64,000 nucleotides of DNA, taken from a virus. A program made the position numbers and the translations under genes. Positions 2,994-38,860 of this stretch are shown in pieces. Positions within the stretch are counted from its first letter, which is position 1; every line of letters begins with the position of its first letter. The notes beneath the pieces are model-generated. The model was not told where the DNA came from. It did no database searches and worked only from the letters and a program-made list of their open reading frames with translations. The stretch covers positions 1 to 64,000 of the IMG/VR virus record IMGVR_UViG_3300025108_000029; one strand, written 5' to 3'.

Positions 2994-3030
2994 CGAAAGG
3001 TTTAACTTTTACACTGCACTGTCTCGGCAC

Positions 3031-3189
3031 ATGAACTTGTTTCTTTTGTTTATTGTAGCATTTTTTTTCGGATTTATTTGCGTGTGGTTGCTGACTACAC
3101 CCGACCCTAATGATACTGTAATTTTTATTGAAGACGAAGAGGCTTTTCATAAAGCGTGTTACGAAGGTATGCGGAGGGGTATTGAATGA
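3031..3189 (+). CDS. Small N-terminally anchored membrane protein (52 aa)
   Basis: Starting at ATG 3031 the product is MNLF followed by a strongly hydrophobic helix of about 20 residues rich in Phe, then a short acidic tail (FIEDEEAFHKACYEG). That suggests a single-pass membrane protein. An upstream in-frame extension exists (from 2974) but would put a polar leader ahead of the helix and overlap the preceding gene. The stop overlaps the next gene by ATGA, indicating translational coupling with the HMG-CoA-lyase gene. No function is recognised. Confidence 0.55.
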   Translation: MNLFLLFIVAFFFGFICVWLLTTPDPNDTVIFIEDEEAFHKACYEGMRRGIE

Positions 3190-4037
3190 AAGTGTCCGTT
3201 TACGAGGTTGGCCCTCGTGACGGATTACAAGGTTTAGAACAACCCGTCAGCACTGAAACCAAAATACAACTTATCAATGCGTTATACAACGCTGGATTAA
3301 AAAATATCGAAGAAACATCGTTTGCTCATCCTCGATTAGTACCGCAAATGGCAGATGCCGAGGATGTTTACCAACAAGGTTCAGTGCTTGTCATGAACAA
3401 GCGTGGCTACGACAGGGCAATGTCAGTTGGTGCAGAAAAAATTAACATTGTTTTTTCACCTTGCGAGACTTTTAACATGAACAATATGGGTAAAACTCGC
3501 AGTGAAATAGTGTTAATGTACAAAACTTTTATGAAAATACCTAAAGAAAATGTTCGTGTGTACATTAGTATGGCTTTTGGTAGCCCTTACAGTGGTGATG
3601 TAGCACCTATGGTGATGAAAAATTGTTTAAACGATGCAAAAATGTTTGGCGATACGGTAGTATTTGCTGATACAATTGGCACTGGTAGTCGTAACGAAGT
3701 AGCATTATGGGCTGAAATGGCTATTATGAAGGGATTAAAACCAGCATTACACTTACATCACAAAGGAAACGAAGAAAAAGCACTGTCTTTAGTCAAAATG
3801 GGACTAATAAGCGGAATAAAAGAGTTTGATTCAAGCATTGGTGGGCTTGGTGGTTGCCCTTTTACGGAAAATAGTGGCAGTAATTTATCCACTGAAACAC
3901 TGGTGCGCCATCTCAACGCATGGGGATTTGACTGTGGGCTTGTTGAAGACGACTTACAGGTAGCGTCAGTCATTGCGACAAGACTTTTATTGGCAGAAAA
4001 AGAAGCCAAACTACCGGTATTACTACAATTAAAATAG
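3186..4037 (+). CDS. Hydroxymethylglutaryl-CoA lyase family enzyme
   Basis: A TIM-barrel acyl-CoA lyase of 283 aa, near the length of bacterial HMG-CoA lyases. Known enzymes cleave 3-hydroxy-3-methylglutaryl-CoA to acetyl-CoA and acetoacetate. Visible signatures: VGPRDGLQ (residues 8-15, giving catalytic Arg11 and metal ligand Asp12), EETSFAHP (42-49), ADTIGTG, the metal-binding His pair H189 and H191, and the catalytic loop GLGGCPF with Cys224. Asn233 lies nine residues after the cysteine, as in the human enzyme (Cys266, Asn275). The residue after the His pair is His, where the usual motif HxHD has Asp. The family call is strong; the in vivo substrate is not shown. It overlaps a small membrane protein by four bases. 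As a metabolic gene among virion genes it is out of place, and in an archaeal host it could drain HMG-CoA from mevalonate and lipid synthesis (inference). Confidence 0.85.
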   Translation: MKVSVYEVGPRDGLQGLEQPVSTETKIQLINALYNAGLKNIEETSFAHPRLVPQMADAEDVYQQGSVLVMNKRGYDRAMSVGAEKINIVFSPCETFNMNNMGKTRSEIVLMYKTFMKIPKENVRVYISMAFGSPYSGDVAPMVMKNCLNDAKMFGDTVVFADTIGTGSRNEVALWAEMAIMKGLKPALHLHHKGNEEKALSLVKMGLISGIKEFDSSIGGLGGCPFTENSGSNLSTETLVRHLNAWGFDCGLVEDDLQVASVIATRLLLAEKEAKLPVLLQLK

Positions 4038-4095: not shown

Positions 4096-5568
4096 TCAAT
4101 ACCTCAAAGTGGGCATTACAAAGGGTTTCGGTTCAATATTTTCATCATCCTTGTAATTTTGAGCCATCAATTCGATGGTGCGAAGCATATGTGGGCTAAT
4201 ATTGTTAATCATTGTACCATTTTCGGTAGGATTCATTTGGTGATTGCGGTCAAGTAGGTTAATGTCTTGAGTAAACTCTTCGGGTAGTGGCTCTTGGTGG
4301 TGGACTTCTACACCTGCCTTAAACAACATTTGCCACGCTAAGTCCATTGGTTGACTTTTTATGTAACCGCTGGCTCTTGCATCATCTTCACTTACTAATT
4401 GACCGTTTACAAAATACATTCCCGGTCCTGCTGGTGTAACTTGAACCGGTTGATTTGCTAATTCTTGTCGTTTAGCCTCTTCTTCTTGTCGAGCCTGTTC
4501 TTTTTGTCGAGCCGCCTCTTCTTGTTTTTGTTTTTTCTCGTACTCTTTTTGCGCTCTATAATCTACTCCTTGTTGGAGTAAGTCTTCATTTTCAAACTTA
4601 TCTGCTAATTCATTTTCATATTTTGATGAAAAACTATCAACAAGTTCGTCTTCGGAGGCAAAGGCTCTTTTGCTTGGCAAATGTTCACCTACAATACCTC
4701 TACTTCGTACTTGAACAGGGCGTACATTCATTGGATTACTTACTTCTCCAATATCAGCATGATTAAGTAAATCAAAATTGTGTGTTTTACCTTCTTTATC
4801 TACTGGGTCTGCATGAAGAGTTATTCCTTTATGAGATAAATTACCGGGTTGCATTACGGCAGAAAGACGCTTTGCTTCATTATTTGTCATTTGATTAGGT
4901 CTTGGGTGTGGTTTATCTGTATAAAGAAAATTAGTAAGCGAGACTTTATCATTTTCTTTATGATTATCAAGTAAACCTTTTTCTTTTAGATGGTCTATTG
5001 CGGCGTGAGATAATTGAAACGGTGTAATAGCGTGTTTTTCACCTTTATGCTCAAAGAGTTGATTATCTATATATCGGGCTTCATCCAATTTATTTTTATT
5101 CCTACCCATTCTTTCATCCCAATGTTCAGTTGGTTTACCGTTTACTTTTTTTGCAGACTCTATCAATTTTTTAACAAAATTATCATATTCCGGTGCTGAA
5201 AATCTACCTGCTAATTTCCAAGCCTTTGTAACAGCCGCCGCTTCTTTGGCTTTATCGGCTACATTTTGTGCGGCTTCAAGGTTATTTTGTTTCATTTGTT
5301 GTTGATTTTGAGTGTGTTGGGCTGATGCTTGTTGAGCCATATCTCCGACTGTTTTTTTAGGGTCGGTAACGCCAATTTTTTTTGCACCTTGCAGGAGTTT
5401 GCTACCTAAGCCAGTAGCGGCGGTAGTACCTGCCGCTGTAGTAGCCGCACCAGTAACCCCTGTTGCACCAGCGGCAACAGTTCCAGTTCCGCCTAATACC
5501 GGTGCGGCGGCGGCGGCAACGAAGGGTGCGGCTTGTACGGCTTTCCGAACAGCAATTGGCCTCACCAT
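4096..5568 (-). CDS. Tagged Ala-rich coiled-coil protein of unknown function (490 aa)
   Basis: One of only two - strand genes. Residues 1-60 are Ala/Thr/Gly-rich and hydrophobic (AAPFVAAAAAPVLGG), possibly membrane-interacting. A mixed charged domain follows, then a Lys/Glu/Gln-rich coiled coil (about 340-375). Near residue 413 comes YIKSQPMDLAWQMLFKAG, an internal copy of the recurring tag with one extra residue before the lysine. No enzyme motif is seen. It diverges from the gene at 5630, with 61 bases between them. The two proteins share an AVRK peptide near their N-termini. It converges on the lyase gene, with 58 bases and no clear hairpin between. Confidence 0.7.
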   Translation of the reverse strand: MVRPIAVRKAVQAAPFVAAAAAPVLGGTGTVAAGATGVTGAATTAAGTTAATGLGSKLLQGAKKIGVTDPKKTVGDMAQQASAQHTQNQQQMKQNNLEAAQNVADKAKEAAAVTKAWKLAGRFSAPEYDNFVKKLIESAKKVNGKPTEHWDERMGRNKNKLDEARYIDNQLFEHKGEKHAITPFQLSHAAIDHLKEKGLLDNHKENDKVSLTNFLYTDKPHPRPNQMTNNEAKRLSAVMQPGNLSHKGITLHADPVDKEGKTHNFDLLNHADIGEVSNPMNVRPVQVRSRGIVGEHLPSKRAFASEDELVDSFSSKYENELADKFENEDLLQQGVDYRAQKEYEKKQKQEEAARQKEQARQEEEAKRQELANQPVQVTPAGPGMYFVNGQLVSEDDARASGYIKSQPMDLAWQMLFKAGVEVHHQEPLPEEFTQDINLLDRNHQMNPTENGTMINNISPHMLRTIELMAQNYKDDENIEPKPFVMPTLRY

Positions 5569-5629: not shown

Positions 5630-7747
5630 GTGAGAAAGGTTGCTGTGCGTAAACCTAATCATGTTCTAAAGGCAGTTTATGACGCTCGACCGTTAAGAAG
5701 GGACCGTGAGCAGTACCTTGATGATTCATTGTTTCGTGAAAGCCCGTTTCACTCATTAAGACTACAAAATGAAAGACACCGATTACCAACTCTTGGTAGA
5801 GCGTTAAACAACTTAGAAAATAGGACTTTTGCAGATGAAACAAGATACTTGAGGGACCATGAATATTTACCTTTAACTGATTTAGCAGGTAATTCACTTA
5901 GCGGGCAGTTTGTATTCCCTGCTCATGCTTATTCTTTTAATCCAAATCCTCGTACAATAGGCGGTAGTACAGCACCCGACCTTCCTATGAACTTAAAAAC
6001 AGGATTACCTTTAAACTTATTTGGTTTTAAAGGTAGAATGCCGCAACGATACGGAAAAAATATTCAAGAAGAAGGTGTCATTTATGGCGATTTAAACGAC
6101 GAGGATGTTGTGCAACTAAATACAAACCCTTTACGACACGATGACATTAGAGAAGCAGGTCGAGCATTATTACCTACACATCACGGTAGATTATCGGGTA
6201 GAGCAAGAGCAGATAAAATAGAAGAAGCCATGAGAGTACTTATGGAGGCTGAAATACCACCTGCGTTGTATAATCAAGAAATGCTGGATATAGAAAATAT
6301 TCACAATGCTGATAATCCAAACCTTACTACTTCGGGTTACATGGGTTCATATTTACAACCATTTAGACAATGGGAACAGGGTGAAGGCTACCGTGTAAGA
6401 GATTTAGACCGACAAGAAGAAATGGGTTTAATTTCCCCCGAACAAAGAATGTTGATGGATGATAATTTAGGCCAAATAGACCCATCGGGTACTTTTTACC
6501 GTAGTGAACCAATGGATATTACTATGCGGTTGCTTAAAACCGCTTACGGTTCTCGTGATGAACCTCCTACCATGACCCGGCTTATGCAGGGTAATTATGC
6601 AGGAAAACCGGGTGCATGTACCCTTTGTGGTAACTCACCAGTAGTAGCAGGGGCGCAATTCCGTAATCCACTGGGTAGTATAAATTACACACACCATTTA
6701 TGTGAGCCGTGTGCAGACCAGTATGGCATCATGCATTCGGCTGATATGTACAAAGGCGAACCAATGGACCTCGCCATGCAGTTGTTGAAAAAATTACCTC
6801 CGCATTGGAGTCGAGATTTTGACACTATAGAACAATTGCGTGACCCTAAACACGGCATACAATCAATGCGAGCCATGTCACTTGAAGACGCTCGAAATAT
6901 TGAACAAATACCATTAAGAAGCGGTAATATAGAGTTTGAAAGAGACTTAACAGACCCCGATATTACAGGTGCAAAAAGTATAGTTCCGGGTATCGCTGGT
7001 GGTAACATATACGATGAAAGTTTAGTAAGAGAAGGTGGTGGTTTTGTTTACAGACCTCATTTAGCCGCTCTTGCCCCACTTTCGCAATACACGGATATGC
7101 CATCAAGTCCAAGACCAAATGTATTGATAGCCTCAACAGAAAAACCGGAGTTTAGAGCAAGTAAAAATGAAGGTAGAATACAAACAGAAGGTTTCATGCC
7201 AGTAGGAATGGACCCAAATCAAGCGTATTTGTTAAGTGACCCTACAAAACCGTTTACTCGTGAAGACTTACTACAACAGGCAAGAATAAAACAAGCCGGT
7301 GGAGTACCATATCATGCAAGAAGCGACATAGAAATAGACCCATTCGACGGATATGCTACGGCTTCACGAGCATTAGAAACTTTACCAAAAGAAAATATTG
7401 AAAACCCTTTTACTCAAATGGGAACATGGGGTCAGCCAAGAGTAGTCGCTGGTCCACAAGATTCCGATGTCTTTTACCGTAGCGAACTAATGGACATTGC
7501 TATGCGACTACTCAAAGAGCGTGTAAGCCCCGAAGCCAAGCGGCATAAGTTGGAGTACGACAAAAAATACGAGTCCAGCCCGGAGAGAGTCAAGTATCGA
7601 GAGGAACTTAACCGTGAACGCCGACGACGACACATCATGGGGCAGGGTGGACCGGACATGAGCCACACCAGCCAGCACACTATTGTTCCCGAAGACCCCC
7701 ATACCAACCGAGCAAGGCATTTCAAGGACAAAGGTACACTTCTTTGA
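5630..7747 (+). CDS. Multi-tag protein with zinc ribbon (705 aa)
   Basis: The product carries three copies of the tag with similar flanks: FYRSEPMDITMRLLK (residues 289-303), MYKGEPMDLAMQLLK (373-387) and FYRSELMDIAMRLLK (615-629). Between the first two lies a zinc ribbon (CTLCGNS, then CEPC, about residues 328-365). The tags split the protein into modules, as if short tagged genes had fused. The end is very basic (SSPERVKYREELNRERRRR, then NRARHF); I recall similar tails in other marine viral proteins of unknown function, unverified. The start is GTG 5630 with GGTGA five to nine bases upstream; an in-frame ATG is not available nearby. Function unknown. Confidence 0.75.
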   Translation: MRKVAVRKPNHVLKAVYDARPLRRDREQYLDDSLFRESPFHSLRLQNERHRLPTLGRALNNLENRTFADETRYLRDHEYLPLTDLAGNSLSGQFVFPAHAYSFNPNPRTIGGSTAPDLPMNLKTGLPLNLFGFKGRMPQRYGKNIQEEGVIYGDLNDEDVVQLNTNPLRHDDIREAGRALLPTHHGRLSGRARADKIEEAMRVLMEAEIPPALYNQEMLDIENIHNADNPNLTTSGYMGSYLQPFRQWEQGEGYRVRDLDRQEEMGLISPEQRMLMDDNLGQIDPSGTFYRSEPMDITMRLLKTAYGSRDEPPTMTRLMQGNYAGKPGACTLCGNSPVVAGAQFRNPLGSINYTHHLCEPCADQYGIMHSADMYKGEPMDLAMQLLKKLPPHWSRDFDTIEQLRDPKHGIQSMRAMSLEDARNIEQIPLRSGNIEFERDLTDPDITGAKSIVPGIAGGNIYDESLVREGGGFVYRPHLAALAPLSQYTDMPSSPRPNVLIASTEKPEFRASKNEGRIQTEGFMPVGMDPNQAYLLSDPTKPFTREDLLQQARIKQAGGVPYHARSDIEIDPFDGYATASRALETLPKENIENPFTQMGTWGQPRVVAGPQDSDVFYRSELMDIAMRLLKERVSPEAKRHKLEYDKKYESSPERVKYREELNRERRRRHIMGQGGPDMSHTSQHTIVPEDPHTNRARHFKDKGTLL

Positions 7748-8458: not shown

Positions 8459-8719
8459 ATGGGTCGTATATTCAAAACACCCACAGATGATTCTACCGAG
8501 GCTACACTTCGTGCCATGCACACTCAAAACACCCTTGACACATATTACGAAAAAGGAGTAGGTTGGATAAGAACAGTGATACTGTGTTTTGTTACCGCTT
8601 TGGCTATTAGTTTTTGGGAATTATCTACCGGTGAGTCTTTTTGGGACAATACTGTAGAGTGGGTGTGGAATAAAGTGCAAAACTTTGCAGATTGGATATG
8701 GGGTAAAGTAGATGGTTGA
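8459..8719 (+). CDS. Small membrane protein upstream of the GTPase (86 aa)
   Basis: A polar N-terminal half is followed by one hydrophobic helix (WIRTVILCFVTALAISFW, about residues 35-52) and a Trp-rich amphipathic tail (VEWVWNKVQNFADWIWGKV). The tail would lie on a membrane surface. Its ribosome site GAGGTGA contains the stop of the preceding gene, and its own end overlaps the GTPase start by eight bases, so the three genes are translationally coupled. No family is recognised. Confidence 0.65.
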   Translation: MGRIFKTPTDDSTEATLRAMHTQNTLDTYYEKGVGWIRTVILCFVTALAISFWELSTGESFWDNTVEWVWNKVQNFADWIWGKVDG

Positions 8720-9428
8720 CCCTGCTGGTTCTGCTCTTGTTGGTGCGGCTGTATTCGGTCAATCCTTGTACAACTCTTGGCGACCTCGCCGTGTAGGTGT
8801 GTATGGTGCGGCAATGGTGGGTAAGACAACTCTTGACCGTTACATGACAACTCCGGGTGAAATGGAAGAAATAGGTGATGATGAAAGAACTTCACACATG
8901 AAAATACTTGGTCGTTACCTAATGCCAAAACCTACCCGTAAGCGTGTATCATGGAAAGGGCAAAAGCGAGTTGTTTATTCAGCCGATATAGGTGGACAAG
9001 AACGATTTTGGAATCTGTGGATTGATGATATGGTATCGAGACAAGTCGAGGCTGTCGTGTTTGTATTTGATGACCGAGCAATAAAAGGTGGAGAAGAAGC
9101 ATTACAACAAATAGCGGGCTTCAAATATCTCGTGGATTGTTTAGTTAATCGCTCTTATCGTTATCGAACTCTCAAAAGTCGGTGGAAGGGTAAAAAGTAC
9201 ACACCTCGATTAGTTATGCTTGTAGCGAATAAAGCAGACCGCTTTTTTGATGAAAATGCCGCAATGCTGTGGCAACAAAACCGAATTGGTGAACATAAAA
9301 TATTCAATGCGTTTCGAGATGACCTTATACGGTTACAAAAAGCAGGAATACCTACACGCCGTTCTTTTATGGCGACTCGTATAGGATGGAATGTTGAAGA
9401 AACGATGATTGACTTACTGACAACTTGA
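8712..9428 (+). CDS. Arf/Ras-like small GTPase (238 aa)
   Basis: All core GTP-binding motifs are visible. G1 is GAAMVGKT (residues 32-39). G3 is DIGGQERF (92-99), with the glycine pair and glutamine typical of Arf/SRP-receptor-beta type GTPases. G4 is NKAD (173-176), and G5-like MATRIG lies at about 220. The length and the absence of extra domains fit a single P-loop GTPase. It would bind GTP and switch conformation; the retained Gln96 suggests hydrolysis is possible. The N-terminal 25 residues are mildly hydrophobic and could be an amphipathic anchor. It overlaps a membrane-protein gene by eight bases and follows another, suggesting action at a membrane. I know no standard virion role for such a protein. 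Confidence 0.8.
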   Translation: MVDPAGSALVGAAVFGQSLYNSWRPRRVGVYGAAMVGKTTLDRYMTTPGEMEEIGDDERTSHMKILGRYLMPKPTRKRVSWKGQKRVVYSADIGGQERFWNLWIDDMVSRQVEAVVFVFDDRAIKGGEEALQQIAGFKYLVDCLVNRSYRYRTLKSRWKGKKYTPRLVMLVANKADRFFDENAAMLWQQNRIGEHKIFNAFRDDLIRLQKAGIPTRRSFMATRIGWNVEETMIDLLTT

Positions 9429-16675: not shown

Positions 16676-18166
16676 ATGGGAGATGACATGAATGCGTTTA
16701 TCCAAGAAATGGATAGCAAAATGGCGGCAAAGTCATTCAAGTACTTCTTTACAGAAATACTGGGCTTTCATTACAGTCATCACCATGAATCATGGGAAAC
16801 AGGACTAAACGAACACCGTTACTACTGTGTTAAAGCAAGTCGGGACCACGGTAAATCCACTTTGTTTATGGCCTATGCTCTTTGGATAGCCGCATTCAAA
16901 CCGGGAACACACATCATGATTTTTTCTCACTCCCTTGAACAGACACTTGAACACATGCGATTTATCCGCAATAACATTGAGAGTGCTGACATTTTGCGAC
17001 ACCTAAAGCCCGAAGGTGGGCGACCGTGGGCTAAGTCTTACTTTGAGTTCACCAACGGTAGCCGTCTAATGGCTAAGTCGGTTGGTGGTGCAACTCGTGG
17101 TTTCCACCCCGATGTGGTAGTATGCGACGATATTCTTTGGGGTACAACTGGTGGAGAACTACAGCGAGCCGCTGACTGGTTCTACGGTGTTTTACTCCCT
17201 GTTCTGCACCACTCATCTCGTTTGATGATGGTAGGTACACCGTTCAGTTACAACGATTTGTACGCCGAATTGGAAGAAAAAGAAACATTCCGTGTCGAGA
17301 CATACCCTGCAATTGACGGTGAAGGTAACGCTCTTTGGCCGGAACGGTGGAATCTCGAAGCACTTGAACAACGGCGTATGTCAATGCCCGCTATCCAATT
17401 CAGCCGTGAATACCTGTGTGAACCTATTCACGATGTTGCGAGTATGTTCCCCGCTACTATTCTCAATGAGGCTCGTAACACAGATTTGGTATTACTCGAT
17501 AGGGCTGATACCGAGTATGATGAAGAGGGTAATCCCGCTGGCGTATTCGGTCAACACTTTATCGGATGGGACACAGCAATCGCTTCGGATAAGAACGCTG
17601 ACTACACAGCCATGCTTGTTTTGCGTACACCGCCCGGTGAGAATGTAAAACAAATTGTTGGCATAGTTCACGAGAAGGGACTTGGTGGTTTGGCACAGAA
17701 AAAACACATTCTTACTCTCAACAGTCGTTTTCAGCCGGATTTAATTGAACTTGAAGGTAACAATTTTCAGCGAATGTTTGCCGCTGAACTTCAAGACATG
17801 AGAGGGGATATTCCTATTCGCACCTTTATGACAACTCGCCAGCGCAAAGAAAGCATGTTCATGTCTTTGCTTATGGCGTTTGAACAAGGACAAATCCAAT
17901 TACCATATGGTGATGAGCGAAGTCGTACATTTACACATAAATTAGAAGAAGAACTCAACCGATTCGGTATGCAAAAAAATGGGCGACTTGAATCGGTGGG
18001 AACGCACGATGACTTGGCAATGGCACTTGCTTTAGCGAACTGGGGAACGAAAGAGTTCAAAGGTTCAGTACAACTACTCGATGATATACTACCCGGATTG
18101 GATGAGTATATCGGCGGAAAAACACACAGAAACAAAGGAACTGGCGACGGATGGTTAATACCATGA
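16676..18166 (+). CDS. terL: Terminase large subunit
   Basis: The DNA-packaging motor. The N-terminal ATPase domain shows a terminase-type Walker A, SRDHGKST (residues 55-62), Walker B VVVCDD (147-152) and coupling motif VGTPFSYND. The C-terminal RNase H-like nuclease shows GWDTAIASDKNADYT with Asp299, LIELEGNNF, and HDD at 444-446, matching the metal-binding acids expected. Length 496 aa is normal. The start may be ATG 16676 or ATG 16688, the latter following GGGAGATGA. It translocates DNA into the prohead through the portal encoded at 20519. Four tiny genes and a LAGLIDADG gene separate the two. Confidence 0.95.
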   Translation: MGDDMNAFIQEMDSKMAAKSFKYFFTEILGFHYSHHHESWETGLNEHRYYCVKASRDHGKSTLFMAYALWIAAFKPGTHIMIFSHSLEQTLEHMRFIRNNIESADILRHLKPEGGRPWAKSYFEFTNGSRLMAKSVGGATRGFHPDVVVCDDILWGTTGGELQRAADWFYGVLLPVLHHSSRLMMVGTPFSYNDLYAELEEKETFRVETYPAIDGEGNALWPERWNLEALEQRRMSMPAIQFSREYLCEPIHDVASMFPATILNEARNTDLVLLDRADTEYDEEGNPAGVFGQHFIGWDTAIASDKNADYTAMLVLRTPPGENVKQIVGIVHEKGLGGLAQKKHILTLNSRFQPDLIELEGNNFQRMFAAELQDMRGDIPIRTFMTTRQRKESMFMSLLMAFEQGQIQLPYGDERSRTFTHKLEEELNRFGMQKNGRLESVGTHDDLAMALALANWGTKEFKGSVQLLDDILPGLDEYIGGKTHRNKGTGDGWLIP

Positions 18167-18196
18167 TTTATCCGTTTAATGAATGGGGATTTTAAA

Positions 18197-18520
18197 ATGA
18201 AAGAAGACGATAAAAAGAAAAAGAAAGGTATGGTTGTTGTAATTGCACTTGGTGGTAAGCCGCCTAAGTCACCGGAACACACCGCTGACCCCGATGAAAA
18301 GAAAAAAATGGATGATGCTTGGCGATTTTTGAAAGCATATTACACCGAAGAACAAGTGGCTGAAATGGAAAATATGTCACCCGAAGACGCATGGAATCGT
18401 AAAAATGAAATAACTATGGATAGGAACGATAAATGCATGGGTTGTAATAAAACACTTAATTTAGGCGACCTTGAATACGGTGCTTGTTTAGAATGTAAAA
18501 CATCTACAAGCGGTAGGTGA
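18197..18520 (+). CDS. Small tagged zinc-ribbon protein (107 aa)
   Basis: Starting at ATG 18197, the N-terminus is Lys-rich, then KKKMDDAWRFLKAYYTEE (about residues 35-52) gives a tag variant, and the end holds a zinc ribbon CMGC...CLEC (about residues 81-102). The pairing of tag and zinc ribbon also occurs in the proteins at 5630 and 33869. It is the first of four tiny genes directly after the large terminase. An upstream in-frame ATG at 18179 is possible but less likely. Confidence 0.65.
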   Translation: MKEDDKKKKKGMVVVIALGGKPPKSPEHTADPDEKKKMDDAWRFLKAYYTEEQVAEMENMSPEDAWNRKNEITMDRNDKCMGCNKTLNLGDLEYGACLECKTSTSGR

Positions 18521-19220: not shown

Positions 19221-20519
19221 ATGTGGGGTAGTGCAATCGTTGGGGATGTGTATGATGCACCTGCTATTGTTGGTGATGACTTCACTAAAAGTGTGTACAA
19301 CACTCTCACTCAACATCCCGATTATGTGCATAAGTCTGTACCGGTCAAAAAAGAATCAAGTTTATTTTTTAATGAAGAGATAAAATCATATAACTTTCCC
19401 AAAAATGGTGATGGTTGGCTTGAGTCAACATACGGTAAAAACGCAGATTCTATAATTCGTATGTGTCGTAAAATGCGAAGAAACGACAAAAGTAATCGAG
19501 ATATGATTGATGCTATTATTGATGATGTGAGAACCATAAAAGCAATGGAGGTTGAAGCAACAATTAACAATTTATCATGGAGTGATGGACTACATGACAC
19601 TATTCGCTACATGGGGTTAAACGACCGTTCATTAAAATCACTGCGAAAGTTTGGAGAGTCGAGAAGCACAGGACTTCAACAGGCTTGTCAAATGTTCTTG
19701 AAAGCCACATCTGTTCTTTCTATGTTAAATGAAATGGATGATTGGGGTGTAGAAGAACAAGAAAATTGGGTTGATGCTATGCAGATGCGTAAGGATGCTC
19801 AAAAAATGTGGCGTGGAACTTTACATCAAATTGATTCTATTTCAAAAGACGATAAAACAACATTAGAGTTTGTTTCAAAACAATTGGATGAAAACGGTGA
19901 ATTGAATAGTCGTGAAATTGTTCGTCGAGGTGTAGGTGTTCTACACAAGTCCGTTACGCCCAGTAAAGTCGGTATGTTGATAAAAATGTACGGTGAAGAA
20001 TTAGACATATACCGAGGGCATAGTCGTGGCATGTTTGTAAAAATGGGTACAAACGGTTTGATTATCAAAGACATTTGGGCTTATGCGGCAGGTTTTCTTG
20101 ATGCTGATGGTAGTATATTTATCAGTGAAAGAGGTGAACCAAGAGCGACATTTGTAGCAACTGGTGATAGAGGTAAAGACCAATGCGAAAGTTTGCATAA
20201 AGCACTTGGATGTGGTCGTTTAGTCCTTAATCAAAAAATACATAAAAATAGTAACCGAAGTCTTCACCGTCTTGTTTTTCAATCAAAAGACGATTTACGC
20301 CAATTACTCAAAGGTATTCTACCACACTTACAAATGAAATCGCTACAGGCAAAGGCTGTTTTGACATTCATTGATTCAAAAGACAAGTTGAGAAAAGACG
20401 AATTACATAAACTCGTAACCTTCAATAATTGGAAAGATGATAAAAAGAAGGCCGACAACCTCTTGTCTAAGTGGGGCTTGGATGCTGATACCATAGGTGG
20501 ATTTGCGGAGGGATTGTAA
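19221..20519 (+). CDS. Protein with C-terminal LAGLIDADG endonuclease domain (432 aa)
   Basis: Residues 1-280 are a helical, charged domain I do not recognise. From about residue 284 a LAGLIDADG domain follows: AYAAGFLDADGSIFIS (288-303) with the usual Asp-x-Asp-Gly, then TFVATGDRG, a beta-rich middle, and LLKGILPHLQMKSLQAKAV, typical of the family. One motif copy means action as a dimer if active. It is not an intein: no splice-junction Cys or His-Asn is seen. It lies between terminase and portal, where many phages carry an HNH nuclease. It could be a homing nuclease fused to a resident gene, or serve packaging (inference). The ribosome site is TGAGGTAG. Confidence 0.75.
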   Translation: MWGSAIVGDVYDAPAIVGDDFTKSVYNTLTQHPDYVHKSVPVKKESSLFFNEEIKSYNFPKNGDGWLESTYGKNADSIIRMCRKMRRNDKSNRDMIDAIIDDVRTIKAMEVEATINNLSWSDGLHDTIRYMGLNDRSLKSLRKFGESRSTGLQQACQMFLKATSVLSMLNEMDDWGVEEQENWVDAMQMRKDAQKMWRGTLHQIDSISKDDKTTLEFVSKQLDENGELNSREIVRRGVGVLHKSVTPSKVGMLIKMYGEELDIYRGHSRGMFVKMGTNGLIIKDIWAYAAGFLDADGSIFISERGEPRATFVATGDRGKDQCESLHKALGCGRLVLNQKIHKNSNRSLHRLVFQSKDDLRQLLKGILPHLQMKSLQAKAVLTFIDSKDKLRKDELHKLVTFNNWKDDKKKADNLLSKWGLDADTIGGFAEGL

Positions 20520-22294
20520 TGGCAGACGATGATAGTAGAATAAGTAGATTTTTAGGCGCACTTGGGAAACCATTCAAGCGTAAGCAATCCCCAACTCCTA
20601 CCATGCCACTTTGGACAAGTGGTATTCAAGAACCAGTTATGGCGCAAGGAATTACCATACCTGCTTTGTATGCTGTAAGCACAGAATGTTTGATTCTAAG
20701 AACTGTACTTTCAAAAATACGACAAGAGATGTTCCGAAGAGGACATTATTTTGAAAAGCGTTTTCATAAAAAATGTAACGATTGCGGTGAAGAATACCAA
20801 CATGATGTTGAGTCTTGTACTACATGTGGCGGGCAAGTGCGTGACCCCGACCATGATGAATTAACTTATGTGAAATGGTTACTCAATCAAGAAAACAGTA
20901 TGGAACAAGCGTTTATTCATATTCTAAATGAAATTGAAAATGACCTTAATATTGTTGATGATGCGTTCTTAATTTTAGTCAAAGAGTATTATATTGACCC
21001 CGAATCGAAAGAAGTAGCGTTTTTCCGTGTTAAAGAACTTATTCGTGGCGACCCTATTTTCATGCGTATTGTCGCTGACAAGCGTGGTGTTCGTGGTGGG
21101 CGATACAAAGTCTGTCGAATCCATAGGGACCAAGTTAAGACACATGCAGAAAGTGATACCTGTGAAGTATGCGGTAGCGATTTACATGATGTTCATTATG
21201 TCAATATGGCCGGTAGTGGTAAAACACAGTATTTCATTGAAGGTGAAGTGCTTCACTTGAGTAAATACAATCCGTCTAAACTCTATGGTCGTTCACCTGT
21301 CAATACAATGTGGCGACAAGCAATGACACTTACAGCAATGGACAACTACATGTACACTTCTTATCAAAAGCGAAGAATGCCAAAAGGTATTATTTCAGTT
21401 ACGACTGATAACCTTGAGTCAATGAAATCGTTTTGGAAGTCTGTTGATGAAAAAATGGAGCGTGACCCGCATTACATTCCAAAGGTTGGTATTGAAAGTC
21501 AAACAGGCCGTGGTGGTGTCAATTGGATTAAGTTTATGGACACCTTAGAAGAGATGCAATATATCGCTGTTCGTGATGAAATACGCAATCGCATCGCCGC
21601 TTACTTTGGTGTGTCAAGCGTCTTTATGGTTGACAGTGGTAAATCCGGTGGTTTGAGCAATGAAGGTATGCAAATACTTGTTACAAATCGTGCTGTTGAG
21701 TTTGGACAAAAAACTTACACCGAAGTTTTGTTTCCTAAAATGCTGAAACAAATGGGTGTTCACGATTGGAAACTCACACTTTATCCAAATGAAGAAGAAG
21801 ACGAAATCACTCGACTACGCCGTGATGAACAAGAACTCAATGTTGCACAGCGTATGACACAACTTGGATTCACTGCTGATTTAATTGATGGTGAATCAAG
21901 TAGCGATATTCGATTCGTCTATCGTAAACCTCCACCTCAACCAGCCGCACCTCCGGGCGGCGCACCACCTCCGGGCGGCGCACCACCTCCTATGATGCCA
22001 CCGGGCGGCGGTATGCCACCGCCTATGATGGGTGGCGGTATGCCAATGGGTGGCGCACCCATGATGAGAGGTATGCCTCCGGGTATGCCAATGGGTGGTA
22101 TGCCAATGCCACCACCTCAACCGGGTGGACAGGGTATGGGACTTCGTAATAGAGGGCCAGCCGCACCTCAACGCCGTACATCGGCTGGTAGTGGCTCTCC
22201 TGTAACAAGTGTACAACAAAGAGGGCCACAGCCCTCAATAGGACAACAAAATAGTAACGCTCTCATGAATGCAAGAAACTTCAAGGGTGCATAA
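20519..22294 (+). CDS. Portal protein
   Basis: The dodecameric DNA gate at the capsid vertex. The central part is typical: YGRSPVNTMWRQAMTL, a helical stem region, then a long domain with DEIRNRIAAYFGVSSVFM and the crown-side EGMQILVTNRAVEFGQK. Two zinc-knuckle insertions are unusual: C86, C89, C100, C103 in the N-terminal part, and C199, H202, C215, C218 in the middle. The C-terminal 110 residues are a Pro/Gly/Met repeat (APPGGAPPPGGAPPPMMPPG), encoded by locally GC-rich DNA. The start overlaps the preceding stop (TAATG). The call rests on sequence pattern and position between terminase and protease. Confidence 0.85.
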   Translation: MADDDSRISRFLGALGKPFKRKQSPTPTMPLWTSGIQEPVMAQGITIPALYAVSTECLILRTVLSKIRQEMFRRGHYFEKRFHKKCNDCGEEYQHDVESCTTCGGQVRDPDHDELTYVKWLLNQENSMEQAFIHILNEIENDLNIVDDAFLILVKEYYIDPESKEVAFFRVKELIRGDPIFMRIVADKRGVRGGRYKVCRIHRDQVKTHAESDTCEVCGSDLHDVHYVNMAGSGKTQYFIEGEVLHLSKYNPSKLYGRSPVNTMWRQAMTLTAMDNYMYTSYQKRRMPKGIISVTTDNLESMKSFWKSVDEKMERDPHYIPKVGIESQTGRGGVNWIKFMDTLEEMQYIAVRDEIRNRIAAYFGVSSVFMVDSGKSGGLSNEGMQILVTNRAVEFGQKTYTEVLFPKMLKQMGVHDWKLTLYPNEEEDEITRLRRDEQELNVAQRMTQLGFTADLIDGESSSDIRFVYRKPPPQPAAPPGGAPPPGGAPPPMMPPGGGMPPPMMGGGMPMGGAPMMRGMPPGMPMGGMPMPPPQPGGQGMGLRNRGPAAPQRRTSAGSGSPVTSVQQRGPQPSIGQQNSNALMNARNFKGA

Positions 22295-26700: not shown

Positions 26701-29555
26701 GGTTACAACGCCGTTCAAGTGAATCTGCTCTTGGTAAACAACCTACACGCTGGAAAACCGATGCTGGTTTTATTGACAAAGTGGCTAAAAATAGTCGTAA
26801 CGCTGTCCTTGAAGCCGCAAAAAAATTATTACCTATAGTTATGGAACATGACCCAAATCATTTTGACATTAACGACCCGGAGAAGTTTATGGCGAATCAT
26901 AACCGTTTAATGTATGACGCTGAACGGTGGCTTGCAAATGCAGACCATAGTGTACACGGTATCAAAGCACCTGTTTACAGAACATCGGATGAAAGTAAAA
27001 CAGTTACTTCAAAGCAAAAAGGCTTTCATCGTGATGTAATGAGTCACATGCTCGACAACAGTTTTGAATTAAACGGTAACATGACACCCGATGAAGTCTT
27101 AGAAGGTATGGGATTAGAAGGTAAGACAAGTCAACAAAAAGCACGATTAAGAGAACATGTACAAAAAATAATTGATGAGTCAAATGTAAGAGAAGTTCCG
27201 TTGCGTGTTGCGACTGTCGGACAGTTAATGACGAGTGGTAATTTTGATGACGAGTTTTCACTTCATCGTATTCACGCTGATGAACAATTCGCTCAAGACT
27301 ATCAAGACGGTGGAATACACACTGCTATTGATAACGCTCAATCGAGAACTAAAAACTGGAAAGCACATCCTATTCATGGTATAGTAGGTACTGTCGGACA
27401 GCATAGATTTGACTCATCGCAATATGGTAGTAATATGTCAAACAACGGTTTATCCTACTATCCAGCCGGTGGTAAACTCGATGTGCATAACAGATTAGGT
27501 GCTGGTAAAGGTGGTAAAAAGCCTTACACGAGAAGAACAAAAAATTACCTTGATAGTATTGTAAGTTTAGATATTGATGCTGTAAATGCTGATAATATGA
27601 CACCTACGCAAGAAATTGTGAGAACGCTTGGTATTAACGGTGAACCAGTACCTATTGGTGGGGTTAATCCTTCTTCATTCGGAATTATGCCTACACACAC
27701 TGGTGCTGATGTAGTCCACTCTTCTGCTGTCCCTCAACAGTCATCATTTGGTATCGAGTTTGATTCTCAAGGACAACCATCGGTCGGTACTTACACTGAA
27801 CCTCAATTATACCATCCTACTTGGCAAGGTGCATTAGAGGAACTCCACGGCACAGATATGACAAATCATTTGTTGGAAACATTACCACCACATCAAAATC
27901 CTACTCCACCTTTTATGGATTATGACAAAGAAACTTTTGATATATTCGGAGAAAACAACCCTACTGCTCTTAACTTGAGTGAAATGAGTGAATATATTAC
28001 TTCTCTTTTAAATCCCGATGTGCTTTTGACAAAAGCCGATGATGCTGAATGGTGTCCTCCGGTAAGACCGATGCACCGCATATTCGATTTAAGTGACCTT
28101 GAACACCTAAGAGGGTTTAGCGGTTCATGGGTAGTCAGTAAGTGGTACGATGGTAAGCGAGTTATTATCGTACAAAACGATAATGAAATCACTACTTATG
28201 ATGAAAATGGGCGCAAGGTTGGATTAAAGAAAGCATTCAAAGAAAGCCTCGCTGAATTAAACGACAATAACTTTGTCATTGATGGTATTGTAGGTGAAGA
28301 AGACTTGAACATTATTGATATTATCAACTATGATGATACCAATGTTGCTGAAATGTTAATGCATGAACGCATGAAAGTTCTAAGAGGGCAGTTCGATAGC
28401 CATGAAAATGTCATCATTCCCGGCCCGCATGATACAAAAATGACTGATGATGAGGGTCTTGAAGACGCTGTTAAAATCCTACAAGAAGACCACGGTATAG
28501 TTTTGTTACGAGATAATAAATCCACATACATGAAAGGAGAGCGTCGTCATCCTAAGTGGTTGTTATTGCGTGAAAGTCGTGATTTTAACTTTATCATTCT
28601 TGACCGTCGAGGTAAAGGACCATACACATATCAACTTGGTGCAGGGCCGATTCTTGACGGTGAAGCATTAGGTAATCGTGCCGTCACATACAAGAACAAT
28701 TTCTACATGGATGTAGGTACAGCCCACAGACAACAAAGAACCTTCAAAGTTGGCGATATAGTAAGAGCAACTGTAACAGGAGTTACAAAAAAGCGTAGAA
28801 AAAATCGAGATGTGTTCAATGTACAAGTGCGTGAAATAGAAAGTGAAGGTGAAGGTGAAGGTGCGGCCAGTGCTGAATCATTAGACCTTATGACAAAATC
28901 GTTTGCACCTTTGCTTATACCCCATGATATAGAATACAATGATGGTGTATTACAAGTTATACTCAAAGGTGTAGATACAGTATCGTATCAAGTTACACAT
29001 ATGGATGACAACTGGTATCTACATGACCCTTCTTCGGCTTTAGGTGATTTGACTAAATCGAATTATTCTCTCACTCTTGCTGAAAGCCTTCATCCGTTTT
29101 GGCATTCAGTAGCACCGTTGATGCTTGACGGTCATCTCGTAAAAACAGAAATGGATGAAAAGAAAGTGCCAAGTCGTAAAAGACAAGAAGAACAATCAGC
29201 CGGAGTTCTTGATGCTAAAGACGATAACCGCCTTCTTAAACCATCAACTAAGAAGGCTCTTGATGTAATTAGTCGTGCTTTAGACAGACTCGCTAAAGAA
29301 AAACTTACTTGGACAGGGCCGAAAGGTTTGGGTATTGACATGGCTACACCGGTAGAATCACCAAGTGGTCCTACGAGATTAACAGAAGAAAGTAACTTAC
29401 CCGACTATGATGGTAAAGTAAGACCGGATGAAAAGGATGGTGTTGATTCGGATGATAAAAAGAAAAAACCCATTACGCATGTTGAAATGAAGACTGATGC
29501 AGACGAGTCTATCGTTTTAGATGATGAAGACGGTACTCCTACTCTTTCAGTGTGA
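23709..29555 (+). CDS. Giant head-module protein with degenerate DNA-ligase fold (1948 aa)
   Basis: It lies between portal and protease, where head-morphogenesis proteins usually sit. Residues 1-1430 are His-, Asn- and Trp-rich with scattered helices and no recognised domain (FLLAHHHTHGEQTNHVW near residue 77). Residues about 1465-1740 match an ATP-dependent DNA ligase: motif I-like KWYDGKR (1478-1484), motif III-like FVIDGIVG (1522-1529), motif IV-like HGIVLL (1595-1600), KWLLLR (1616-1621), then an OB fold with FKVGDIVRATVTGV. Spacings of 47, 71 and 20 residues are normal. Key residues are off: lysine sits three, not two, before Asp; motif III lacks its Glu; motif IV Glu is His. Probably an inactive nucleic-acid or nucleotide-binding domain. 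The C-terminal end is acidic. Confidence 0.7.
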   Translation: MVAEQFNIAKDELLLSLADGNDLAFSAAEYIIAWESLNKAPTDTLSKSLKYTAELIQKEEDKAAKVEKVKSYKEGPGFLLAHHHTHGEQTNHVWKDSLSGADNVRESHAVWPRYVPTSSHPYREHNYPFHHTNHPLLRMDSSKGNAGYVEVLRSHIFGGHSKEEAQMEKEFQKYLETKKSPLVHGYNGKKILGSLRHHKSNYSHQHDLYERDYQRWNKLNSDLKDQYLADGRSAEETENRLRVDHFNQRAKQWQSGGYVVDENGDNHAVGLGQEGYHLGLEWLNPEERTAVMRHLHEKGVDNHNEIKLPNGEFIPTARLTWNNLMRRTPEKNWALRASGHFGPNGHLRQETLEGDFRQGDNRFSQGVIGEAAHTYEIGGQPISHYIAEAIHNRFGIELPDGDNEGVGKPFDILPRLGLHSKPVQDSYSLKDLRAGTFKHYKKSKGMDPKHTRMPMEDVLFLAGYDPKTRKPLLNHPIYGEMDGPIIPLHDLEQMESEAKSHGSLSSLAKEMRTDLAYLQSPHGPHPDEEKPKFWRFDKGGNHTIGPAKFWSKPFAQVGGADMTLATYNENVHSVAHNEDELTEEEKIEQAYANIASNEPVDITGGAQNEDTAHIPTPFQQKKKDMSSPSTSGLFEVNEQHHGQLHPNPINMALGMHFGPEKSREIGQVEKQKGGATKFVRFQDGDILQNLFSPANAFTKTSSGDKHNWTLHQSTYNPQLLHSLRTMSNDEKKKLKVDTIKQTLHSHNPLKTSQPESTYGAHTSDAPIGEKARANHWRKTMLGQTLDPYKPQKNSVQPLKDLMSGNIPVSFGVDHEDYMDFLGWGVKQPNFNNVKNYITSPDSAKALRILTAIAKETGSNSPNRILNNINDLTEDNPMYADIKHRMEKEGSYLNDGDIDELKGWLNSFEVQLRQKKGKEAEAKNQRSKTSIQATEDTTFTTRTIDSALKFGGMLPAMQKEKELSERLNVITEMIQYMDSPEQVQSLRRELDEGQVELNRLQRRSSESALGKQPTRWKTDAGFIDKVAKNSRNAVLEAAKKLLPIVMEHDPNHFDINDPEKFMANHNRLMYDAERWLANADHSVHGIKAPVYRTSDESKTVTSKQKGFHRDVMSHMLDNSFELNGNMTPDEVLEGMGLEGKTSQQKARLREHVQKIIDESNVREVPLRVATVGQLMTSGNFDDEFSLHRIHADEQFAQDYQDGGIHTAIDNAQSRTKNWKAHPIHGIVGTVGQHRFDSSQYGSNMSNNGLSYYPAGGKLDVHNRLGAGKGGKKPYTRRTKNYLDSIVSLDIDAVNADNMTPTQEIVRTLGINGEPVPIGGVNPSSFGIMPTHTGADVVHSSAVPQQSSFGIEFDSQGQPSVGTYTEPQLYHPTWQGALEELHGTDMTNHLLETLPPHQNPTPPFMDYDKETFDIFGENNPTALNLSEMSEYITSLLNPDVLLTKADDAEWCPPVRPMHRIFDLSDLEHLRGFSGSWVVSKWYDGKRVIIVQNDNEITTYDENGRKVGLKKAFKESLAELNDNNFVIDGIVGEEDLNIIDIINYDDTNVAEMLMHERMKVLRGQFDSHENVIIPGPHDTKMTDDEGLEDAVKILQEDHGIVLLRDNKSTYMKGERRHPKWLLLRESRDFNFIILDRRGKGPYTYQLGAGPILDGEALGNRAVTYKNNFYMDVGTAHRQQRTFKVGDIVRATVTGVTKKRRKNRDVFNVQVREIESEGEGEGAASAESLDLMTKSFAPLLIPHDIEYNDGVLQVILKGVDTVSYQVTHMDDNWYLHDPSSALGDLTKSNYSLTLAESLHPFWHSVAPLMLDGHLVKTEMDEKKVPSRKRQEEQSAGVLDAKDDNRLLKPSTKKALDVISRALDRLAKEKLTWTGPKGLGIDMATPVESPSGPTRLTEESNLPDYDGKVRPDEKDGVDSDDKKKKPITHVEMKTDADESIVLDDEDGTPTLSV

Positions 29556-29574
29556 AAGAAACATTCTATATACC

Positions 29575-30987
29575 ATGACAATGAATCGGAGGGTAATGTT
29601 GTCCTTAAAGCGACCCACCTCCGGCATTGCTCTCATTAAGGGCAGTTCCGATATGGTTATCGCTGGCTACGCATCAGTTGAACTGGTGGACAAGCAAGGC
29701 GACCTTATTACTCGTTCAGCACTAAAGGATGCATTTGGCGGATTCATGAAGAGTGAGAAGTTCCGTAATGTTCAACTCGCTCACTCAAATATTCAAGTTG
29801 GAGAAGTTATTGACTCCTATGTAGATTCAAATGGTCGGATGTGGAAGTCCGAAGTTGATGATGCCGGTATGTTTGTCGTTGTTTCACTTCGCAACGATAT
29901 TGAAAAGGCTCGTGAAGTGGCCGCAGAAATCCGTAAAGGTAATCTGCAAGGATTTTCCATCGGTGGACAAGCATTCAAGAGAGTGCGAAAATCGGATGGG
30001 GAACATGGAGACTACCAAGAAATTAGTAAAATGGAACTGCACGAAATAACGATATGTGAAAAAGGGATTAACCCCGAAGCGCAGTTTCGTATTTTAAAGG
30101 AGGACACCCACATGACAACAGAAAATGATTTGAATAATGTAATGAGCAGACTTGAAGCACGACTTGACGCTATGGAAAAAGGCGAAATGCCTCCCGGCCT
30201 TAAGGAACATATGAACGATAAAAAAGACGATTCCGACGATGAAAAGAAGGAAAACCCATTCGCCGCAAAAAAAGACGAAGAAAAGGATGACGAGGATATG
30301 AAAGACGACAAAATGTATGCAAAGAGCGAGTACAGTGATGTAATTACTGCTGAATACCTAAACTGGATGGAGGACACTCTCAAATCCGCTGGTGTTGACA
30401 CTATGCAAGCACGAACACACTTCGATAATTTGGAAAAGGCGCAACTTGGCGGCTTCGACAACCCCGATGCTGTTGATGGTGCTGACTACTTCGCCGGACA
30501 AGTCCGAGGTCGAGGTCAAGAAAACGGTTCACCTTCAACCGGTGCAATCTCCGCAATCTCTTCAACTGGTGGTAAAACACCATCCGGCGCACTTGGGCCT
30601 GTTTCAATGGCTAAGGGTTACATTAACCCAAGCAATGTTTCAGCATCCGATGTTGAAGCCGCTTACGAAGTTTACAAAGCCGCCGCAATGGAACAAGGAT
30701 TCCGTGGCGACCTTGAATCTCAATTCGCATCTCGCTTTGCAGAAGAACAAAAAATTGCAAAGCATGAAGCAGAAAAAGCCGAGTTCGACGCTCGTGCGCC
30801 TCTTAACGAAGTCATGAAGTCAATTAACGCACTAAGTGAGCGTATTGATAACATTGGTATTCAAGGAACATCAATTCAAAAGTCGGCTTCTTCATCTAAT
30901 GTTGAAGTCCCATCCACACAAGACTTGAGTAACATGTCTTGGGATGAAGTACACAATCTCGCCGGTTCGGTCATTCGAGGGGCTTGA
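29575..30987 (+). CDS. Prohead protease fused to scaffold
   Basis: Residues 1-175 are an HK97-type (S78) prohead protease: DKQGDLITRSAL, VQLAHSN with catalytic His70, LQGFSIGG with catalytic Ser128, and HEITICEKGINPEAQF. The second half is a scaffold: an acidic charged linker, coiled coils, a Gly/Ser-rich segment, and a C-terminal NMSWDEVH motif. In relatives the protease cleaves scaffold and capsid N-termini during maturation. An in-frame internal start (ATG 30112) with its own ribosome site gives free scaffold. The start is uncertain: ATG 29575, ATG 29581 or ATG 29596 (GGAGG only three bases away). It directly precedes the capsid gene. Confidence 0.85.
   Translation: MTMNRRVMLSLKRPTSGIALIKGSSDMVIAGYASVELVDKQGDLITRSALKDAFGGFMKSEKFRNVQLAHSNIQVGEVIDSYVDSNGRMWKSEVDDAGMFVVVSLRNDIEKAREVAAEIRKGNLQGFSIGGQAFKRVRKSDGEHGDYQEISKMELHEITICEKGINPEAQFRILKEDTHMTTENDLNNVMSRLEARLDAMEKGEMPPGLKEHMNDKKDDSDDEKKENPFAAKKDEEKDDEDMKDDKMYAKSEYSDVITAEYLNWMEDTLKSAGVDTMQARTHFDNLEKAQLGGFDNPDAVDGADYFAGQVRGRGQENGSPSTGAISAISSTGGKTPSGALGPVSMAKGYINPSNVSASDVEAAYEVYKAAAMEQGFRGDLESQFASRFAEEQKIAKHEAEKAEFDARAPLNEVMKSINALSERIDNIGIQGTSIQKSASSSNVEVPSTQDLSNMSWDEVHNLAGSVIRGA
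30096..30103 (+). promoter_or_regulatory. Internal ribosome binding site for nested scaffold
   Basis: TAAAGGAGG ends eight bases before an in-frame ATG (30112) inside the protease-scaffold gene. It is one of the closest matches to a full Shine-Dalgarno sequence in the window, although it lies within coding sequence. Confidence 0.75.
30112..30987 (+). CDS. Nested scaffold protein (in-frame internal start)
   Basis: Starting at ATG 30112 within the protease gene and sharing its frame and stop, the product is 291 aa: MTTENDLNNVMSRLEARLDA coiled coil, a Lys/Asp/Glu-rich stretch, helical and Gly/Ser-rich middle, coiled coil ALSERIDNIG, and the C-terminal NMSWDEVHNLAG. Lambda (C/Nu3) and other phages use the same arrangement, so that scaffold is made in excess over protease. 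The strong internal ribosome site at the expected domain boundary is the main evidence. Confidence 0.75.
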   Translation: MTTENDLNNVMSRLEARLDAMEKGEMPPGLKEHMNDKKDDSDDEKKENPFAAKKDEEKDDEDMKDDKMYAKSEYSDVITAEYLNWMEDTLKSAGVDTMQARTHFDNLEKAQLGGFDNPDAVDGADYFAGQVRGRGQENGSPSTGAISAISSTGGKTPSGALGPVSMAKGYINPSNVSASDVEAAYEVYKAAAMEQGFRGDLESQFASRFAEEQKIAKHEAEKAEFDARAPLNEVMKSINALSERIDNIGIQGTSIQKSASSSNVEVPSTQDLSNMSWDEVHNLAGSVIRGA

Positions 30988-36957: not shown

Positions 36958-36967
36958 GTTGATTAAC

Positions 36968-38860
36968 ATGCCAAGCACAGTGTATAAGGGAGATTTAGCA
37001 GAAGTATCATTTGCACCGGAAACGGGTATGGTAATTCGTGATAACACTGATGCGTCAATCGCTGTTCAAAACATCGGAAACAACATTACTAAAATTACCT
37101 TTTCAAATCAAAATAATTCTGCTCTTTTTGACAGTAGTGCTAAGTTGAGATACCCGAAAAATATGCTTGTAGGTTCGCAATTGATATTTGAAGCGGCAGG
37201 TAGTAGTGCTATAAATGTAGGAGATTTACCCGATACTGGTAACGGTGGTCGTGTTTTTACTATTGTAGAAAACGATGGTGTTACTATGAAAATTACACCC
37301 GCTATGATTACCAGTATTGGAGGGAGTGTTAATTTTAGTAATAACGATACAATCCATATTTTACCCTACAAAACTCCACCAATGAATGTAGATATGACAC
37401 ACACGACAGCAGGTGAATCAGTCAAAACAGACCAGTTCTTGGGTATTGCTACGGCTCTTACTCTACCGGAAACTAAAGTGGACTTGAAGCGATTTCATGT
37501 TGTAGGGCTTGGCCGAGATGTAAGTGTACAAGTTCCCGGCAAACTTACCAATGAAGGTGGCTCATTTGAAGTCGCTATGCATTCTGCTCGATGGTTGAAA
37601 TACTGTCTTGGACATGAATTGATTTCATCACCCGATAGTGGCAGTGTAGCAACTACTCTTTCTGCGGAGTCTTTTGCTGGACAATCACATATCGTTGTAA
37701 CGAATAAAACGGGCATTGCGGTGAATGATTATATTGAAATCCGTGATGAAGCACCTCTCGTACCTATTGTAAGCGACCATGAACCCGATGCAGACTCATC
37801 ATCAGCATGGGCAGGGAATATGACTGATTTTTTGTTTGACAACGCTAAACCGCATGAAGTACGAAGAGTCATTGGTATTTCATCAGTTGACAACAGACTA
37901 TACTTGGATGAACCGTTGCTTTACCCTCATGCAAACAGTACTGATATAGAAGTTCGTGACCCCGATACTACGGGTTCTTTACCTGTTATAGTAACATCAG
38001 CAGGTGTCATTACTAATCCAGTTAAAAAATTACTTTTCTCACGCACTACTCAACCTTCGTTTGCTCTTGAAGTATCTCAACGCCGAAGAGACATGGACTC
38101 CGATGAATCAACTACAGATGGTGGAGTTGGAGATACAAAAGAATTGACTCGTGTTTTCCGTGGTTGTAAGGTTACAGACTTTACCATGACAACCGACAAC
38201 GATGCGGCACTGCGCCTTGCCGTTAATTTTAATGCGGCTCTTTGCTACACCGATACTGGTCGTTTAGAGGCAACACCAATTACTCGCTACGCTTCTCACC
38301 GTATGTTTGACGATACCGCTAATACAGCGCAAGGTCGTATTAACTCCGGCATTGCATTGGGAACACAGAAACCGTTTATGTTTTACAACGGTAGCATTAC
38401 ATTGGCCGGACAACAAGTTGCTCAAGTCATGAACTTTTCATTAACAGGACAAACAGGTATGCAAGCGTTCCATACCATTAACGGTCACTATCAAGCAAGT
38501 TCGGCTTCTACCGACCAAGTGCCATTTGCTGGTGCAAGGAACGCAAACCTCATGGTTGAAGGTCAAACATCGTATGAAATGACTATGGAGATTGCAGTTG
38601 ATGACCCACTTTTCTATCATAAAATGCGTACAGGAACCGAGTTTAGTGTTAATGGTGAAGGTGATTCAACAACCAATCAAATCCGTATTATATTTGAAAA
38701 GAACCTTACTGGTGAAAAAATGGTGTTATTGATTGATGATTACTACATTATCGAAGCACCGTTACAAATCCCCGAAGACAAAGGTGTAGTAAAATCAACA
38801 CTCAAGATTATGCCAAAATCAATCAAGGTTTTAGCAAGTGACGCAGTACCAAAGTATTGA
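36968..38860 (+). CDS. Major tail tube protein, enlarged
   Basis: ATG 36968 is preferred to in-frame TTG 36959. It is 630 aa, larger than typical tubes (150-400). Tube-like segments are VDMTHTTAGESVKTDQFLGI, LKRFHVVGLGRDVSVQVPGK and, at the end, DYYIIEAPLQIPEDKGVVKS, where such proteins form the hexameric ring. The middle (about 230-440) appears to be extra beta domains, probably exposed on the tail surface. The position after the terminator and before the tail chaperones is right for a tail tube. The end is followed by TGAGGTG and the next gene. Confidence 0.7.
   Translation: MPSTVYKGDLAEVSFAPETGMVIRDNTDASIAVQNIGNNITKITFSNQNNSALFDSSAKLRYPKNMLVGSQLIFEAAGSSAINVGDLPDTGNGGRVFTIVENDGVTMKITPAMITSIGGSVNFSNNDTIHILPYKTPPMNVDMTHTTAGESVKTDQFLGIATALTLPETKVDLKRFHVVGLGRDVSVQVPGKLTNEGGSFEVAMHSARWLKYCLGHELISSPDSGSVATTLSAESFAGQSHIVVTNKTGIAVNDYIEIRDEAPLVPIVSDHEPDADSSSAWAGNMTDFLFDNAKPHEVRRVIGISSVDNRLYLDEPLLYPHANSTDIEVRDPDTTGSLPVIVTSAGVITNPVKKLLFSRTTQPSFALEVSQRRRDMDSDESTTDGGVGDTKELTRVFRGCKVTDFTMTTDNDAALRLAVNFNAALCYTDTGRLEATPITRYASHRMFDDTANTAQGRINSGIALGTQKPFMFYNGSITLAGQQVAQVMNFSLTGQTGMQAFHTINGHYQASSASTDQVPFAGARNANLMVEGQTSYEMTMEIAVDDPLFYHKMRTGTEFSVNGEGDSTTNQIRIIFEKNLTGEKMVLLIDDYYIIEAPLQIPEDKGVVKSTLKIMPKSIKVLASDAVPKY

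Follow-up and report, generated by a model that had tools for sequence, protein, structure and literature searches.

The locus examined here raises the question of why a virus of archaea would carry a gene resembling that of HMG-CoA lyase and what the encoded protein would do in an infected cell. HMG-CoA connects leucine breakdown with the mevalonate pathway, through which archaeal lipids are made, and its cleavage yields acetyl-CoA and acetoacetate. The gene (positions 3186-4037, plus strand) starts with ATG and encodes a TIM-barrel protein of 283 aa, whose HMG-CoA lyase-like character is indicated by family profiles, a structure model, and conserved residues. It lies in a window of 64,000 bases, corresponding to bases 1-64,000 of a 77,150-base IMG/VR record. 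The reading favored here, with a probability of roughly one half, is that the protein represents a virus-specific magrovirus branch of the HMG-CoA lyase family and works as an active C-C lyase on host HMG-CoA or a close relative, possibly recruited to the membrane.

The virus and its lyase-like gene

The terminase large subunit (16676-18166, plus strand) shows that the record comes from a tailed virus. Its gene and that of the portal protein (20519-22294, plus strand) were identified by profile searches; the prohead protease (29521-30987) and the tail tube protein (36959-38860), both also on the plus strand, were identified with Pfam. The remaining 13 kb of the record encode, on the minus strand, a group II chaperonin (thermosome; L018 5065-6576, record 65064-66575), an ERCC4 nuclease, a PD-(D/E)XK nuclease, a DNA methylase, and PolB. 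A thermosome is a magrovirus trait, and a chaperonin is present in 14/16 lyase-bearing records examined, divergent ones included; the two exceptions are incomplete records, 16 and 29 kb long. The genome plan of magroviruses (order Magrovirales) combines a tailed-virus morphogenesis block with an opposite-strand replication block that contains PolB, a PD-(D/E)XK nuclease, and related genes (PMC12999244). The 77-kb record has terminase, portal, protease, and tube on one strand and thermosome, ERCC4, PD-(D/E)XK nuclease, and PolB on the other, and by this gene content it is a magrovirus. Its presumed hosts, according to the magrovirus literature (PMC12999244), are the Poseidoniales, a group of archaea abundant in the sea. 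A near DNA match to the window was not found in the phage record collection.

The earlier note considered that HMG-CoA lyase is not a standard viral metabolic gene. This view is out of date: the auxiliary metabolic genes (AMGs) that Xu et al. (2023) give for magroviruses include HMGCL (PMC10160649), and the presence of the gene is therefore not new. Their HMGCL comes from the same virus group and bears the same annotation, and it very probably belongs to the same gene family as the window lyase. PMC10160649 treats it as a leucine-degradation AMG that is sporadic among vOTUs; its main text does not include the active-site change, the membrane partner, the promoter-like element, a gene tree, or exchange between lineages. 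Thus, measured against that main text, gene presence in magroviruses has been known since 2023, whereas the altered clade, the partner cassette, the element, and the lineage exchange appear to be new. No paper other than PMC10160649 was found to deal with leucine degradation or an HMG-CoA lyase in Poseidoniales.

At least 80 viral contigs encode relatives of the lyase, with 42-95% identity to the window protein; the viral set used throughout consists of the best 80 of 120 viral contigs with relatives. Among long related records picked by their terminase, 15/27 contain the lyase, and among terminase-picked records of at least 80 kb it is present in 8/12, in one of them as an incomplete match where the contig ends. 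Most of the 80 loci are flanked by genes of the window's virus, which bears out the proposed linkage of the lyase to viral genes. The closest of them (L001) encodes a lyase 95% identical to that of the window, and the genes that flank it on either side are shared with the window.

A metabolic gene close to the edge of a virus contig could also be a host or bacterial fragment in a chimeric assembly, and a break at 3-4 kb had been named in advance as the place to look for one. The contig is not chimeric there, since the same linkage recurs on L001 and other viral contigs. Chance and chimerism are excluded by the 80 independent viral contigs with relatives, the synteny with L001, and the low dN/dS values of the gene (~0.04-0.17). 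With virus genes flanking most of the 80 loci, full support (100/100) for a viral clade, and a chaperonin carried by the virus records, the probability of contamination is negligible. Matches labeled 'Acinetobacter phage MD-2021a' were rejected as a phage gene because their annotated surroundings resemble a bacterial chromosomal acyl-CoA gene cluster; MT836185 is an unannotated fecal fragment.

Several other genes of the window deserve mention in their own right. Downstream of the lyase lies a convergent gene of unassigned function (4096-5568, minus strand), and a similar gene occurs near the lyase in 10/80 viral loci. In the morphogenesis block, the protein encoded at 8712-9428 has small-GTPase-like motifs (GKTT, DIGGQ, NKAD) and is present in 41/80 related loci; it gave no Pfam, PHROG, or PDB sequence match and none in the phage record collection. 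A giant ORF of 6115 aa (42213-60560) probably encodes a tail or host-contact protein. It is followed by a gene for a small lysine-rich protein (60557-60895), similar stretches of which occur at varying places in 33 related loci. A motif approximating [FM]DxAWxLLK recurs, often near the start of small proteins (168-473, 470-1381, 1510-2478, 2405-2713, 18179-18520, and 60883-61410), and is found in three copies inside the 705-aa protein encoded at 5630-7747. In its loose form it occurs 200 times in 47/61 related loci and 0 times in reversed sequences, and it may serve as a tag for virion targeting or for processing.

Fold, ancestry, and active site

The protein encoded at 3186-4037 matches the Pfam family HMGL-like (PF00682) with an E-value of 3.6e-18 and 66.3 bits, above the gathering cut-off of 29. 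Its best NCBIfam model is that of HMG-CoA lyase (NF004283/PRK05692; E 3.8e-60), yet its score of ~203.5 bits misses the curated cut-off of 246 bits. An AlphaFold2 model (pLDDT 89.9) has eight HMG-CoA lyase entries as its nearest structures (Z 33.8-35.6), followed by 4-hydroxy-2-oxovalerate aldolase (Z 27) and isopropylmalate synthases (Z 26). The predicted TIM-barrel fold is thus clearly nearest to HMG-CoA lyases, and the protein can be aligned with solved HMG-CoA lyases over ~270 residues. With all the catalytic residues that the earlier note named also present, its proposal of a lyase-type enzyme is sustained. Its more specific label stands as a family type, by fold and residues; in the strict curated sense it is unsupported because the score is below the NCBIfam cut-off.

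In a tree of viral and sampled cellular lyases, the viral and cellular rows are split at 100/100 support. By this tree, the viral lyases are one clade, a virus-specific branch set against the sampled cellular enzymes. The closest cellular lyase among the matches listed has 41% identity, and no archaeal lyase is among the best 80 matches in a genome scan. The dN/dS values given above, obtained over 15 pairs, are well below 1, and the viral lyase is under purifying selection. Another virus-encoded HMGL-like fold is known from Klosneuvirus (A0A1V0SKU2; TM-score 0.83); this protein belongs to a giant virus of eukaryotes and has 27% identity to the window lyase.

In HMG-CoA lyase, R41, E72, Y167, and C266 are catalytic, and D42, H233, H235, and N275 bind Mg (PMC6941031). 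The residues first picked out from the sequence (R11, D12, H189, H191, C224, and N233) align with human R41, D42, H233, H235, C266, and N275, and E72 and Y167 (human numbering) are likewise kept in the window lyase. All eight positions are identical in 80/80 viral proteins (best 80 of 120), and these published residues are conserved across the 80 sampled cellular lyases as well. Cellular HMG-CoA lyases (human HMGCL and bacterial 1ydn, 1ydo, 2ftp, and 6nds) share the fold, the catalytic set, the Mg ligands, and the GLGGCP loop with the viral protein at 29-34% identity in structure alignments, and this loop is kept in nearly all viral members.

The viral enzyme departs from its cellular counterparts in its sub-cut-off score, in its small membrane partner gene, and at several sites of the active region. 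The substitution noticed earlier, His for the Asp that follows the HxH pair, is real: H192 of the window protein occupies the position of human D236, giving HxHH at 189-192. This Asp is retained in 80/80 sampled cellular lyases (HxHD) and in 0/80 viral proteins, where His replaces it in 68/68 close relatives and 7/12 distant ones. Val occupies the Ser201 position in 80/80 viral proteins, most close members have Ser in place of Glu177, and HxH is followed by a longer loop than in cellular lyases. Because Asp236 is never kept, Ser201 is always Val, and the loop is longer, the altered active site may confer a substrate or rate different from that of cellular HMG-CoA lyases.

Taken further, these changes would describe an enzyme of HMG-CoA lyase fold whose cleavage (or condensation) reaction involves another acyl-CoA or keto acid. 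Its new specificity would then be marked by Asp236His, Ser201Val, Glu177Ser, and the longer loop; these features occur in all or almost all close viral proteins and in few or none of the 80 sampled cellular ones, and the missed NCBIfam cut-off fits such a shift. However, the entire catalytic and metal-binding set is kept, the GLGGCP loop persists in nearly all members, and the nearest structures are all HMG-CoA lyases. A changed substrate is accordingly a possibility to be taken seriously, albeit a doubtful one.

Membrane partner, upstream element, and mobility

Directly upstream of the lyase lies a gene for a 52-aa protein with a single membrane span (3031-3189, plus strand), whose reading frame shares its last 4 nt (ATGA) with the start of the lyase gene. 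Partners of this kind are 51-60 aa long and have a single hydrophobic span and a tail whose end resembles FHQACFNGMRRGIQ. The partner stop lies inside the lyase start codon with the same 4-nt overlap (ATGA, GTGA, or TTGA) in the window and in 35/80 viral loci; in six more of the 80 the partner is nearby, and in 39/80 no copy was found nearby. A separate collection search with a single partner protein gave 12 full-length matches, 12/12 of them adjoining the lyase on contigs of the lyase set, and nine additional matches spanning 22-25 aa only. The partner is present in 0/12 related records that lack the lyase, apart from a weak partial match in one. Among the records searched, the partner is found only together with the lyase. 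Purifying selection acts on the partner in most pairs, whose dN/dS is far lower than 1; the pair of window and L001 has a ratio near 0.6, with few changes.

A promoter-like element, GTTTAACTTTTACACTGC, occupies positions 3000-3017 (plus strand) and ends 13 nt before the small gene. It is the sole match in the window at up to 3 mismatches. Across loci, GTTTAATTTCTACACC is usually separated by a 15-nt gap from the start codon of the pair, or from that of the lyase when it stands alone. Of 31 matches to a loose form of the pattern in 61 dereplicated loci (1.97 Mb, both strands), 24 are directly before the cassette. Archaeal TATA boxes of genes with little or no leader have a similar spacing, and the element is a putative archaeal TATA-type promoter. 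A general virus promoter was rejected because the element is hardly found away from the cassette. A shorter variant of the pattern is no more frequent in the window than expected by chance, and a search for an RNA leader structure before the cassette revealed only weak, variable hairpins.

The position of the lyase gene varies. The earlier placement in a structural region holds for the window, where the gene is on the same strand as the terminase and 12.6 kb upstream of it, but not as a rule, since its site differs between viruses: it precedes the morphogenesis block or the chaperonin, follows the giant tail ORF, or lies between the terminase and portal genes. Identity to the window is only 36-37% for the terminases but 70% for the lyases of two records (G034/G035; L100/L102), whereas in another (G044) the terminase is 70% and the lyase 61% identical. 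This mismatch indicates exchange between lineages, and the simplest reading of these sequence identities is that the lyase gene moved between deeply diverged magroviruses.

Patchy presence, a promoter-like element of its own, shifting positions, and a membrane gene found only with the lyase would also suit a non-catalytic moron, a pair engaged in superinfection exclusion or in host takeover via the membrane protein, with the lyase as a binding scaffold. Such a role is quite improbable given that the catalytic residues are strictly conserved across 42-95% identity and that about half of the lyase loci have no membrane gene. A more ambitious proposal retains catalysis and envisages a spreading two-gene cassette, in which the membrane protein and a re-specialized lyase with a new active-site signature attack, at the membrane, the pool of precursors for archaeal isoprenoid lipids; this is an unlikely scenario.

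A possible role in infection

Neither HMG-CoA reductase nor thiolase was found in 37 lyase-bearing virus records, and no clear metabolic enzyme family was found among 58 neighbor proteins. Host metabolites would therefore be needed as substrate. The substrate and role set out here for the favored reading, an active virus-specific lyase, are inferred. During infection, the viral protein would act as a Mg-dependent C-C lyase, converting host HMG-CoA or a close 3-hydroxy-3-acyl-CoA to acetyl-CoA and a keto acid. This reaction would either draw carbon from the entry point of mevalonate and archaeal lipids or complete leucine breakdown, and it would supply acetyl-CoA to a cell committed to virion production. 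A probable function of the small protein encoded upstream is to tether the enzyme to the membrane or to regulate it there. If it is a tether, the arrangement would recall HMGCLL1, an ER-membrane-associated cytosolic HMG-CoA lyase (PMC6941031). HMGCLL1 presumably attaches via its own N-myristoylation motif (PMC6941031), whereas in the viral case the membrane protein is a second polypeptide, the product of the gene immediately preceding the lyase.

The altered signature is testable with one purified enzyme. Should the cassette proposal prove true, it would reveal an enzyme system by which viruses target the lipid metabolism of archaea. More generally, selection on this gene, its exchange between deep lineages, and its frequent coupling to a membrane protein suggest that these viruses, when they infect, interfere with a metabolite central to the host, and they point to HMG-CoA, where leucine breakdown meets the synthesis of archaeal lipids, as a possible point at which infection is controlled.
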